Assembly: GCA_015066105.1 (NCBI GenBank) | Contig: SVOY01000001.1 | Coordinates: 310,001 to 374,000, forward strand | Direction: 5' to 3' | Length of the DNA stretch: 64,000 bases | From: Oscillospiraceae bacterium | Lineage (GTDB): Bacteria; Bacillota; Clostridia; Oscillospirales; Acutalibacteraceae | Shown here: positions 50,922 through 55,534 of the stretch, in pieces | Numbering within the stretch: the stretch's first letter is position 1 | Layout of the letters: each line of letters opens with the position of its first letter | Program-made: the position numbers and the translations under genes | Notes under the pieces: model-generated | Databases searched by the model: none | Told to the model about the DNA's origin: nothing | Seen by the model: the letters and a program-made list of their open reading frames with translations, nothing else

Positions 50922-52418
50922 ATGGGTAATTTAAATATTCCACCAGAATGCGAAAAATACGGGAAAGAAATTGATCGTTTACTTGATGAAGAAAAGTATG
51001 ATGAGTTGGCAACTTATATTGAATCAGTAGAAATTTACGGACAAACACATTCTACTTCCGAGTATGCAGTTGTTTTTTATTATCTTGGCACAGGATATAG
51101 TGAATTGGCAAATGATGCGAGTAAAAACGAGACCGACAATTCTGATATAGCATATGTTGAGTATAGAAGAAAATCACTTTACTATTTCAGAAAAGCTATA
51201 TCTTTGCTTGATCATACTGATGATACTAAAACGTTATTCCATCTAATATACACTAATTATGCAAACAGTTTGGATGCTTGCGGCAGAGTAATAGAAGCAT
51301 TGAGAATATATCGAAAAGCGATATGTTTGTCTGACAATTTTGGAATGGCTATTGGTAATTATGGGAGAGCATTAAACTTTTATGCCAACATTGTAAATGA
51401 TTCAGGACATTACAAAGAGTTGCACTGTTTTGCCTACCGTGCGCTAAAAAAAGCTCTTGAAACCATAGATCCTAATATGCATTTATATGCTAAACGTTTT
51501 TTTGAAGGGTTGGTTAATGAATATGAATCTTTAACTCCTTCGGATATTTTATCTGCCTCGATTGTTTTTAAGCAATATGATTTGGGCGAAAGCGAGGAAA
51601 CGTCATATAGAAAATGGTGTTTAGAGAATCATCTGTTTTTAACGCCGCTTAACGATGTTATAGAATATGAATCTGCATTTGCTCACGATCCTTTAACAAT
51701 TACTCGATACACTGAAAATGTAGAAAAAGATGAGTTATCATCAGATCAAGGAGTGAATCCACCAAGATGGTTTGCTATGTTAAATCAGCTCAAAGAGGAG
51801 TTTATCTATGCTCGCTATTTATGTTATGAGGGTTCTGAAAATATAAAAGAACTACACTTTGCAGATAAAGATGTAAAATTATCGTTGTCTGATTATGATT
51901 ATGTAAATTACTCTATCAGGTTAGAACAATTGAAATCTGCATTTAGACTTCTGTTCTCCGTCTTTGACAAAGTTGCATTCTTTGTAAATGATTTTTGGAA
52001 TATGGGATTTACGGAAAGACAAGCTGACGCTCGCCATATTTTTCTATCAAACAAATTACCCCAGACTAATATTGCCTTGACTGCTCTGTATTGGAGCTAT
52101 AGCGAATTTGTCAAAGATTTTTGGCCAAGTGAGGTTGCATCTGAAAGAGATTTATACACATTAAGAAATGCACTTGAACACAAATATGTTAAAATACATG
52201 AGCATCCTAACAATTATAAACTAGAAATCGCTGATGATAACTTCTATCATATTAGTGAACAAACGCTAATAGAACAATGCGTTCGTTTAGTGGAACTAGC
52301 AAGAGAATGTATTATGTACCTCGTATATGCTATTGATATCGAGGAAAGTAAAAAAGAAAAGGACGAGGATGCGGTGACCTTAAATATTATTGATTTTGAT
52401 GATGAATGGAAAATTTAA
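50922..52418 (+). CDS. TPR + LA2681-like HEPN domain protein
   Basis: TPR-like helical repeats; DLYTLRNALEHKYVK (RX4H). Start placed at ATG 50922 behind GAGGT. Confidence 0.75.
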   Translation: MGNLNIPPECEKYGKEIDRLLDEEKYDELATYIESVEIYGQTHSTSEYAVVFYYLGTGYSELANDASKNETDNSDIAYVEYRRKSLYYFRKAISLLDHTDDTKTLFHLIYTNYANSLDACGRVIEALRIYRKAICLSDNFGMAIGNYGRALNFYANIVNDSGHYKELHCFAYRALKKALETIDPNMHLYAKRFFEGLVNEYESLTPSDILSASIVFKQYDLGESEETSYRKWCLENHLFLTPLNDVIEYESAFAHDPLTITRYTENVEKDELSSDQGVNPPRWFAMLNQLKEEFIYARYLCYEGSENIKELHFADKDVKLSLSDYDYVNYSIRLEQLKSAFRLLFSVFDKVAFFVNDFWNMGFTERQADARHIFLSNKLPQTNIALTALYWSYSEFVKDFWPSEVASERDLYTLRNALEHKYVKIHEHPNNYKLEIADDNFYHISEQTLIEQCVRLVELARECIMYLVYAIDIEESKKEKDEDAVTLNIIDFDDEWKI

Positions 52419-52465
52419 ATAAATAGAAGTTAATAAGATTCAATACTGAGCAAAGAGGGATAATT

Positions 52466-53584
52466 GTGGCAAAAATGAAAAATGATCTTAAACGTGAGAT
52501 ATTTAGAGAGCTTTGTCAACATAAAGAAGAACTAAAAAATGATGTCGAATTTGTGCAAAGAATTATTAATGAACGTTTGGCATATATACCGCATAAAAAA
52601 TTGTATAAATTTCGTTCCTGTTCAATTAATAGTTTTAAAACCTTAGAAGAAAGTTGCATTTGGATGTCTCCTGCAAGTAGTTTTGATGATCTGTTCGACA
52701 ATACAATTAATATTGATTTAGTGCAAAATAGCAGAGAAATAAAGAGTTGGGTTTATAATAGTTTTCCTGTATTTTGTTTTGATTTAGCAAAAAGTTTCTG
52801 TGAGTCTAATGGTGAAGATGTCCCTTATAATCACAACGATTTTTTGGAGTATATTGATACTTGTTTAGATAATAATGGGAGCCCAATAATTGATAGAGAA
52901 CGTAATTTTATAGAATCGCGTGTTGCACACGATGACGCTGACCGAATGAATGAAATTTTTTCACTTTTAAAAGAGCTTAGAGAAAAGTTTGCGGCAAACG
53001 AAGAGCAAATGGTTGATTCGATTTCAAATGCAATTAACGATGCACGTACATATATGCGGGATGCTACATTAGTTTATTGTATGACTGAGAACTATGATAA
53101 TCCGACATTATGGGAAAGATATGCAAACAAATACACCGGCTTTTGCATAGAGTATTATTTTGGTGATTTTTTAAAAAAAGAATTTGAGGATTATAAAAAT
53201 TTATGTTTCTTATTTCCTATGAGCTATTGTAAGAAAAAACCATATTTTGATATGGTTCCTTTTATAGATAATACTTGTCGACGTACTATTTATAAAGAAG
53301 AGAATGCTTGTAGGGATTTAGACTTAGATGTAGAATTGAATATGCAACTTCATTATAAAAATAAAGAATATGAATTTGAACATGAATGGAGATTTTCAAT
53401 AAATAATAAATCTAATAACAAACAGTATTTTCCTTATATTAATGCAATTTATGTCGGAAAGGATATAAAGCCCGGTAACCTAAATAGACTTTGTAGCATA
53501 GCAAGAAAGCTTGGCGTACCTATTTACAAACAAATTCCTAATAAAGCAAATAATGGATTCGAATATATAAAAATACTTCTTTAG
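52466..53584 (+). CDS. DUF2971-family protein
   Basis: KLYKFRSCSINSFKTLEESCIWMSPASSFDDLFD; YCMTENYDNPTLWERYANKYTGFCIEYYF. GTG start with AGAGGGA RBS. Confidence 0.78.
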   Translation: MAKMKNDLKREIFRELCQHKEELKNDVEFVQRIINERLAYIPHKKLYKFRSCSINSFKTLEESCIWMSPASSFDDLFDNTINIDLVQNSREIKSWVYNSFPVFCFDLAKSFCESNGEDVPYNHNDFLEYIDTCLDNNGSPIIDRERNFIESRVAHDDADRMNEIFSLLKELREKFAANEEQMVDSISNAINDARTYMRDATLVYCMTENYDNPTLWERYANKYTGFCIEYYFGDFLKKEFEDYKNLCFLFPMSYCKKKPYFDMVPFIDNTCRRTIYKEENACRDLDLDVELNMQLHYKNKEYEFEHEWRFSINNKSNNKQYFPYINAIYVGKDIKPGNLNRLCSIARKLGVPIYKQIPNKANNGFEYIKILL

Positions 53585-53625: not shown

Positions 53626-54417
53626 ATGGCAAAAACTATTAACAAAATTATTTATTTTGACAAAGAAACCATTCGTAATATTCTGCAAGAGCAGGACCAT
53701 GGAGAACTATCAAAAACAATTGATATTTCTTCTTCTGTTCAAAATGAAGGTTCTGTTTCTGCGGAAGCGTCAGCAAAACTTAAATTGGATGTACCTTTAA
53801 TTTCTCGAATTTCCTTTCTTTTCTCTGGTAAAATAGATGCTTCATATATGATTAAACGTGACAGCACGACAACTATTTCTTCAACTGAAATATCAGAATT
53901 TGAGAAATTAAAACCATTATTAGTTCCTATCTCAAATGTTCAATTAACAGACATCGAAAACTCTTCAACATCTCTGCGTGTGGCTGGTGGATATCTTAAA
54001 ATTGTAAAAGGCGGTGTTGATGGTTTAGATACAAAAGAATTTAAAACAGTAATGGATAGTTACGATGGTTATGATACATATAAAGTTGATGACAAACGTT
54101 ATGTACGATTTAATAATACAGCTTTTGTTAGTAATTATAAACGAAATGACTTGCTTTCTACAACAATGAACTTGTTCTGTATTCCGGTAGGTTCTTTTGA
54201 TAAAGAGCGTTTTGATTTTATGAAAGAAATCGGGAAAATGGAACGTCTTATATCAACAGCAGAACAACCACAAACGCTATCTGAATTATATCCTCCTACA
54301 ACACCAGCAACAAAGGAAACTAAATCTGATTCTATTCAAGAAAGTGAAACCGACAAAATAACTCTTTATGATGTATTATACGCTTGCGTTTCGGTGGGGG
54401 ACGAAAATGGAAGATAA
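53626..54417 (+). CDS. DUF6414-like protein
   Basis: IIYFDKETIRNILQEQDHGEL...SAEASAKLKLDVPLISRISFLFSGKIDASY; NLFCIPVGSFDKE. Confidence 0.6.
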   Translation: MAKTINKIIYFDKETIRNILQEQDHGELSKTIDISSSVQNEGSVSAEASAKLKLDVPLISRISFLFSGKIDASYMIKRDSTTTISSTEISEFEKLKPLLVPISNVQLTDIENSSTSLRVAGGYLKIVKGGVDGLDTKEFKTVMDSYDGYDTYKVDDKRYVRFNNTAFVSNYKRNDLLSTTMNLFCIPVGSFDKERFDFMKEIGKMERLISTAEQPQTLSELYPPTTPATKETKSDSIQESETDKITLYDVLYACVSVGDENGR

Positions 54418-55534
54418 ACGTAAATATCATATAATCATTGGTTCAAAAGCTTTTTTTGATGAAATGTTGACTGATTTCTCTGAAGAAGATGATGTGGCTA
54501 CTTTTTTAGAGTTAGTCAAGCTTTCAGATGCTTCTAAAAATAGCCGTTATCCTTTTGAAGACTATGCAGAAAAATTAGTTATTAAAAATAACAATTATCA
54601 TGGTATTGTTGATGCTGCGCATGACCGATTGGGGCCGTTAATTGAAGATTTAACAACAGATGATGCTGAAATTTATGTGCACAATCCACCAAGAATTCTT
54701 AAGGAGTATCTAGAAGACCAGTATAAGCGTTCAATTATTGAACTTGATATTTCTTGCGAAAAATATAAAATGCAACGTGACACAACATTATTTGCTGAAA
54801 ATATTAAGAACATATCTTCGAATATATTTGGTCAACAAAGAGCTATTGAAGAAGTAAGTAAAAGCCTTTGGTATCTTACTACTGTAAAAAGAGAAAAACC
54901 ATATGTTATTATGCTTTATGGTAATAGTAGTCTTGGTAAAACTGAGTTGGTAAAAGAAGTATCAAAAAAATTCTTTGATGGGAAATCTTTAGAAAAGCAT
55001 TTATCTATGTTTAAAAATAATAATTATTCTGAATATTTTTTTGGAGATGCACCTAACCGTAGGAGCCTCGGCTTTGACCTGTTGGAACGTGAATCTAACT
55101 TGATTTTCTTTGACGAATTAGATAAATGCCCTGAACACTTTTTTTCAGCATTTTATACTTTGTTTGATAACACTATGTTTAAAGATGCTACATATGATGT
55201 GGATGTTTCAGGTATAGTCATTTTCCTTACATCTAACTATCAAACAGAAGAGGAAATGAAAAAACAATTAGGACTTCCAATTTTTTATCGAATAGATAAA
55301 ATGATTCATTTTAACGACTTTGATCATTCTACAATATATGAAATAGTAAAAAATGAAATAGAAGCAAGAGAAGGTGAGTACAAAGATAAACTGACTTCAG
55401 AAATGGTGTATGCTGCTGTAAGTCCATTTATTTCGACAAGCGGAGAAAATGCCAGAACCATTAAATATAAGGTTCAACAAGTTATAGAAGAATTATTATT
55501 CCAAGAAGTTGTGAAAGAACTATTGCAACAGTGA
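54407..55534 (+). CDS. AAA+ ATPase (ClpA/B-like core)
   Basis: LYGNSSLGKTELVKEV Walker A, NLIFFDELDKCPEHFFSAFYTLFD Walker B, IVIFLTSNYQTEEEM sensor-1; overlaps the upstream gene by 11 nt. Confidence 0.85.
   Translation: MEDKRKYHIIIGSKAFFDEMLTDFSEEDDVATFLELVKLSDASKNSRYPFEDYAEKLVIKNNNYHGIVDAAHDRLGPLIEDLTTDDAEIYVHNPPRILKEYLEDQYKRSIIELDISCEKYKMQRDTTLFAENIKNISSNIFGQQRAIEEVSKSLWYLTTVKREKPYVIMLYGNSSLGKTELVKEVSKKFFDGKSLEKHLSMFKNNNYSEYFFGDAPNRRSLGFDLLERESNLIFFDELDKCPEHFFSAFYTLFDNTMFKDATYDVDVSGIVIFLTSNYQTEEEMKKQLGLPIFYRIDKMIHFNDFDHSTIYEIVKNEIEAREGEYKDKLTSEMVYAAVSPFISTSGENARTIKYKVQQVIEELLFQEVVKELLQQ

Follow-up and report, generated by a model that had tools for sequence, protein, structure and literature searches.

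Four genes on one strand fill positions 50922-55534 of a 64,000-nucleotide stretch of the genome of an Oscillospiraceae gut bacterium (contig SVOY01000001.1; 'the window' below means this whole stretch). Do they form a single anti-phage system, or have separate modules come to lie side by side? A preliminary description, made from the sequence alone, read them as a candidate defence cluster and allowed for either one multi-gene sensor/effector system or two neighbouring ones. We conclude, with a probability of roughly 0.8, that the cluster closes the cargo bay of a mobilizable element integrated at guaA and consists of three independent modules with one transcription direction. The defence reading holds, with a Dodola system, the HEPN family and a PDC-S31 candidate now identified; 'two neighbouring' systems came close, whereas a single system is not supported, the Dodola pair DolAB standing alone in six loci. 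The four open reading frames (ORFs), each preceded by a Shine-Dalgarno-like sequence, are as follows.

50922..52418, + strand: TPR-HEPN protein of the LA2681 family, 498 amino acids (PF18733 match, TPR matches, AlphaFold model)
52466..53584, + strand: DUF2971 protein, PDC-S31 candidate, 372 amino acids (PF11185 and PADLOC PDC-S31)
53626..54417, + strand: dolA (DUF6414), Dodola subunit A (PADLOC DolA; PF19952)
54407..55534, + strand: dolB, HSP100/Clp-D2-like AAA+ ATPase, Dodola subunit B (PADLOC DolB; ClpC/ClpB matches)

The HEPN and DUF2971 genes are separated by 47 bp and DUF2971 and dolA by ∼40 bp, while dolA and dolB overlap by exactly 11 nt (54407-54417); the right attachment repeat of the element begins 254 bp past the dolB stop. 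The shared direction, the overlap and the position at the right end of the element, all described earlier, are thus borne out. No Rfam RNA was found near the cluster or the element ends. DNA similarity between loci ends at the edges of genes or gene pairs, with blocks covering dolA-dolB (53631-55507), the DUF2971 gene (52471-53577), Fic and Mrr.

Judged by their profile matches, the third and fourth genes are the known Dodola system. DolA matches its PADLOC model with an E-value of 2.2e-54 (positions 2-257 of 258) and DolB with 4.5e-105, both Dodola models being matched over their full length; dolA lies directly before dolB, and the ATPase motifs of DolB are intact. The third protein also matches PF19952 (DUF6414; E 7e-7), and the nearest PDB relative of DolB is the second AAA+ ring of ClpC/ClpB, as expected from the earlier calls of a DUF6414-like and a Clp-like AAA+ protein; the PADLOC matches overturn the view that this pair is uncharacterised. 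No meaningful PDB relatives of DolA were found. The DolB motifs are:

54920..54943, + strand: Walker A, GNSSLGKT (G172, S174, G177, K178 and T179 invariant in 6 DolB)
55100..55117, + strand: Walker B, LIFFDE (D236 and E237 invariant in 6 DolB)

Six other loci have DolAB but neither HEPN nor DUF2971, namely a genome of the same family (G055, L060) and five plasmids from Ligilactobacillus, Bacillus, two Enterococcus species and Alkalihalophilus; in the five plasmids neither gene is annotated near the pair. A gene-neighbourhood check, proposed in the preliminary description, finds DUF6414 next to the AAA+ ATPase in every DolAB locus examined, beside Thoeris, HicAB and Fic, a TIR protein or unrelated genes. 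The pair on the Ligilactobacillus salivarius plasmid is 67% (DolA) and 69% (DolB) identical to that of the window and has the same 11-nt overlap, and DNA similarity to this locus spans dolA-dolB only. A search of genomes for the DolB family was dominated by ordinary Clp ATPases; among its matches, only those of G055 and the window stand out by score as true DolB. DolAB alone protects broadly in Streptococcus thermophilus, by a mechanism given as unknown (PMC12322248), and Dodola is cited as active against SPP1 in Bacillus subtilis (as cited in PMC11514479). DUF2971 was considered as a third Dodola gene and rejected, as it is missing from the six other DolAB loci.

The first gene encodes a probable RNA-cutting HEPN protein. 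PF18733 matches it with an E-value of 2.1e-49 (168 bits against a curated cut-off of 27), and its parts are:

Amino acids 8-204: TPR-like helices (sequence matches to TPR structures, and model)
Amino acids 277-474: HEPN domain (PF18733)
52164..52181, + strand: HEPN RX4H motif RNALEH, R415-H420 (alignment of 26 members)

Both the RNALEH motif and the TPR scaffold had been recognised beforehand. R415, E419 and H420 are invariant across the 26 aligned HEPN_LA2681 members, which come mostly from Firmicutes, with some from Proteobacteria, Bacteroidota and virus-classed contigs; the RNxxEH pattern is kept in nearly all. The N-terminal half matches TPR structures by sequence, and the AlphaFold model is confident (predicted local distance difference test (pLDDT) 84.6, predicted template modelling score (pTM) 0.89). 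It consists almost entirely of helices: those of the TPR part span 8-204, a C-terminal helical bundle holds the HEPN helices from 282, and RNALEH is at the end of helix 409-420. The family has been listed as "fused to TPR, and in operon with TPR" (Anantharaman et al. 2013, PMC3710099). A literature search found no RNase assay of any HEPN_LA2681 member. The gene occurs on prophages, plasmids and islands, and its neighbours in other genomes include type I and IIG restriction-modification, mad2 of MADS, BrxL, RloB and GmrSD families. A Dysgonomonas locus (L101, 6121-9443) has two RlaP RNA-repair genes directly upstream of HEPN_LA2681. Such neighbours, together with the RlaP pair, fit an RNase that backs up restriction, as an association and not a proof.

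The DUF2971 protein matches PF11185 (E 1.4e-8; 36 bits against a cut-off of 22) and PADLOC PDC-S31 (E 2.4e-30). Its closest relative, 75% identical, lies in L059 (7891-12647) directly before Drt3a of the DRT3 reverse-transcriptase pair. In L137 (5165-9633), a gene related to the L061 copy discussed below lies 15 bp after Drt3b. A literature search did not find DUF2971 mentioned together with a reverse transcriptase. A fixed DRT3-DUF2971 pair is not general, DUF2971 being absent from the flanks examined at three other Drt3b loci. An ADP-ribosyltransferase-like fold, hinted at by an invariant ExE and R, is likewise unsupported: the model is weak (pLDDT 62) and gave no PDB fold match, and the sequence gave no PDB match.

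Do the HEPN and DUF2971 genes nevertheless form a two-gene module beside Dodola, with an RNase effector and a DUF2971 sensor, modulator or antitoxin? In the window they are adjacent on the same strand, and the arrangement recurs in two of 38 other, mostly non-redundant HEPN_LA2681 loci (an uneven sample, with short flanks in some cases): a prophage contig (L061; gap 81 bp) and L100 (gap 372 bp). In L107 the two are two genes apart. The density of DUF2971 in genomes predicts ∼0.009 adjacent cases among 38 loci, an estimate that ignores defence-island clustering. The two genes adjoin more often than background predicts, although defence genes tend to cluster in any case. Against such a module, no DUF2971 match was found in the flanks examined at 35 of the 38 loci, none of the DUF2971 loci sampled independently of HEPN has an adjacent HEPN_LA2681, and gene order varies, with DUF2971 upstream of HEPN in L100. 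(Single-protein scans missed HEPN in genome contigs and DUF2971 in viral contigs; alignment-based searches found them.) The three HEPN-adjacent copies also sit in separate parts of the DUF2971 tree, two of them grouping with a DRT3-adjacent copy, although several branches are long and weak. Those of L061 and L100 are not close relatives of the window's copy, whose sister is the DRT3-adjacent gene of L059, and the relatives of the L061 copy are solo or DRT3-adjacent. Conserved co-occurrence, proposed earlier as the check for this pair, was not found, and we regard a two-gene module as unlikely. The scatter in the tree and the varied neighbours (HEPN, DRT3 or none) indicate that DUF2971 behaves as a mobile single-gene cassette, and the HEPN and DUF2971 genes seem to be single-gene cassettes in their own right, side by side in some loci only. 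A further reading makes DUF2971 an exchangeable partner, recruited independently by nucleic-acid-acting defence enzymes: HEPN_LA2681 (window, L061, L100), DRT3 (L059, L137) and perhaps an ApeA-type HEPN (L100). On that view the window pair, next to Dodola, would be a two-gene abortive-infection module not described before, which we likewise consider unlikely.

The excess of HEPN-DUF2971 adjacency weighs against three fully separate modules, and two further observations count against our interpretation. No terminator-like site was found in the cluster between HEPN and dolB, so HEPN, DUF2971 and dolA may be co-transcribed; and a PDB fold search with the HEPN_LA2681 model returned TPR proteins as best matches, covering the TPR part only, and no HEPN structure. 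The missing terminator, the common strand and the short gaps are also what one would expect if all four genes made up one sensor/effector system. None of the other loci examined, however, unites the four, DolAB and HEPN are each found on their own elsewhere, the similarity blocks stop at module edges, and DolAB alone protects in the published test (PMC12322248). A four-gene system was rejected on this independent occurrence of its parts, and we hold it to be very improbable.

Each of the three modules most likely works on its own. We lean towards a TPR-gated HEPN RNase that causes abortive infection: the TPR part would sense an infection cue and release the HEPN domain, probably dimeric, which would then cut cellular RNA and bring about growth arrest. 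DUF2971, as a single-gene cassette, may contribute to defence alone or in an auxiliary role. The genes dolA and dolB are probably translationally coupled through their overlap. More tentatively, DolB could be a ring-forming HSP100-type motor with a protein partner, DolA, that presents or acts on an infection-related target as adaptor or effector; both the ring and its substrate are conjectural here, as is the defence activity of the window's copies. What the analysis does show is the gene content, the protein families and motifs, the ends of the element and that the modules are independent.

The cluster is carried by an integrative mobilizable element of 17.26 kb, inserted at the guaA 3′ end and complete with integrase, relaxase and flanking attachment repeats. 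The guaA gene, the ends of the element and its core (39531..44334) are:

37526-38542, + strand: guaA (GMP_synt_C, E 1.1e-34)
38530..38542, + strand: left attachment repeat TGAGTGGGAATAA, 13 bp, the 3′ end of guaA
39531-39713, + strand: excisionase-like ORF
39732-40802, + strand: tyrosine integrase (Pfam)
40795-41127, + strand: NikA-like ORF (by likeness to 57980-58315)
41120-42265, + strand: AAA_25 (Pfam)
42528-43685, + strand: Mob_Pre relaxase (Pfam)
43695-43970, + strand: DUF6809 (Pfam)
43984-44334, + strand: TnpV (Pfam)
55788..55800, + strand: right attachment repeat TGAGTGGGAATAA

The repeat has exactly two copies in the 2.48-Mb genome, the two element ends. Similarity to genomes of the same genus breaks off at the guaA stop or no more than ∼130 bp beyond it, and some of these genomes have other integrases or regulators next. 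In another genus (G176/L008), an HTH gene (99% identical), HsdM and HEPN_LA2681 lie between copies of the same 13-bp repeat, and the ∼250 bp around the right repeat are conserved there after HEPN. Outside the window, four loci (L008, L074, L100 and L102) have HEPN_LA2681 close to guaA, against 0.15 expected (P ∼2e-5 on a simple Poisson model that likewise ignores defence-island clustering). In L100 (4267-11545), guaA is followed by DUF2971, HEPN_LA2681, an ApeA-type HEPN gene and, by eye, a broken second DUF2971-like gene; in the proteobacterial L102 (Rhodopila; 7719-11147), HEPN_LA2681, in two overlapping ORFs, abuts the guaA 3′ end.

Upstream of the cluster, the cargo bay (44871..50706) holds:

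44871-45083, + strand: HTH_26
45093-45566, + strand: DUF6548
45585-46190, + strand: Fic (PDC-S04, E 2e-104)
46193-47101, + strand: Mrr
47213-48253, + strand: EcoRI-type adenine methyltransferase
48235-49344, + strand: C5-cytosine methyltransferase
49341-50213, + strand: ORF
50203-50706, + strand: ORF, PD-(D/E)XK-like by eye (EID...IEAKK)

The two methyltransferases overlap or abut the two family-less ORFs (47213-50706), possibly as a restriction cluster. DUF6548 and Fic (45093-46190) form a candidate defence cassette; in L059 a Fic gene with 86% identity likewise follows the same HTH gene. Next in tandem comes another copy of this element type, partly broken (55801..61332; direct repeats, Pfam, ORFs):

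56011-56529, - strand: XRE
56904-57980: integrase
57980-58315: NikA-like
58299-58706 and 58725-59444: AAA_25-like, split into two ORFs versus the intact 41120-42265 of the first copy
59705-60862: Mob_Pre
Within 55801..61332: TnpV-like

The direct repeats of the two copies lie 17.17 kb apart. The genome is an 85%-complete draft, whose assembly could have gone astray at the 96%-identical repeats spaced 17 kb apart; the arrangement is nonetheless supported because the element end is shared with L008. After the tandem elements, both the window (62852-63973) and L177 (2853-6460) carry an FHA-domain protein followed by PP2C phosphatase- and Ser/Thr kinase-like genes. The mobilizable element, the contested attachment site and the second element in tandem would suit genes that act mainly in addiction or competition and stabilise their element in contests with other mobile elements, not with phages. 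Dodola, however, was discovered and assayed as a defence against phages, and no antitoxin-like partner is recognisable at the cluster; we consider this role quite unlikely.

A possible new four-gene system is thus replaced by a known system and two single-gene candidates; the parts are of known kinds and together make no new single system. The guaA 3′ end emerges, with exact ends given, as a recurrent landing site for defence-cargo elements in Clostridia, and two candidates are singled out: HEPN_LA2681 as a putative RNase defence protein and DUF2971 as a possible helper of HEPN or DRT3 neighbours.

Compared with known systems, the window pair has the full-length models, order and adjacency of Dodola (DolA DUF6414 and DolB ClpB-like AAA+) and is an ordinary member, except that same-strand HEPN and DUF2971 genes precede it. 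The first gene shares with the HEPN_LA2681 family (PF18733, PMC3710099) the TPR fusion, the conserved RX4H motif and restriction- and defence-rich neighbourhoods, but has a DUF2971 gene next downstream. The second resembles PDC-S31, a single-gene phage-defence candidate, and prophages also carry DUF2971 as a lone gene, whereas its relatives adjoin DRT3 in L059 and L137 and HEPN in L061 and L100. Integrative mobilizable elements, for example ATE-1, the IncP island and Gisul2, are known to integrate at the guaA 3′ end and to accrete in tandem (PMC5704250). The window element shares with them the tyrosine integrase, the relaxase, the attachment repeat at the guaA 3′ end and tandem accretion, but differs in its Mob_Pre/DUF6809/TnpV core and in a cargo made up largely of defence and restriction genes.

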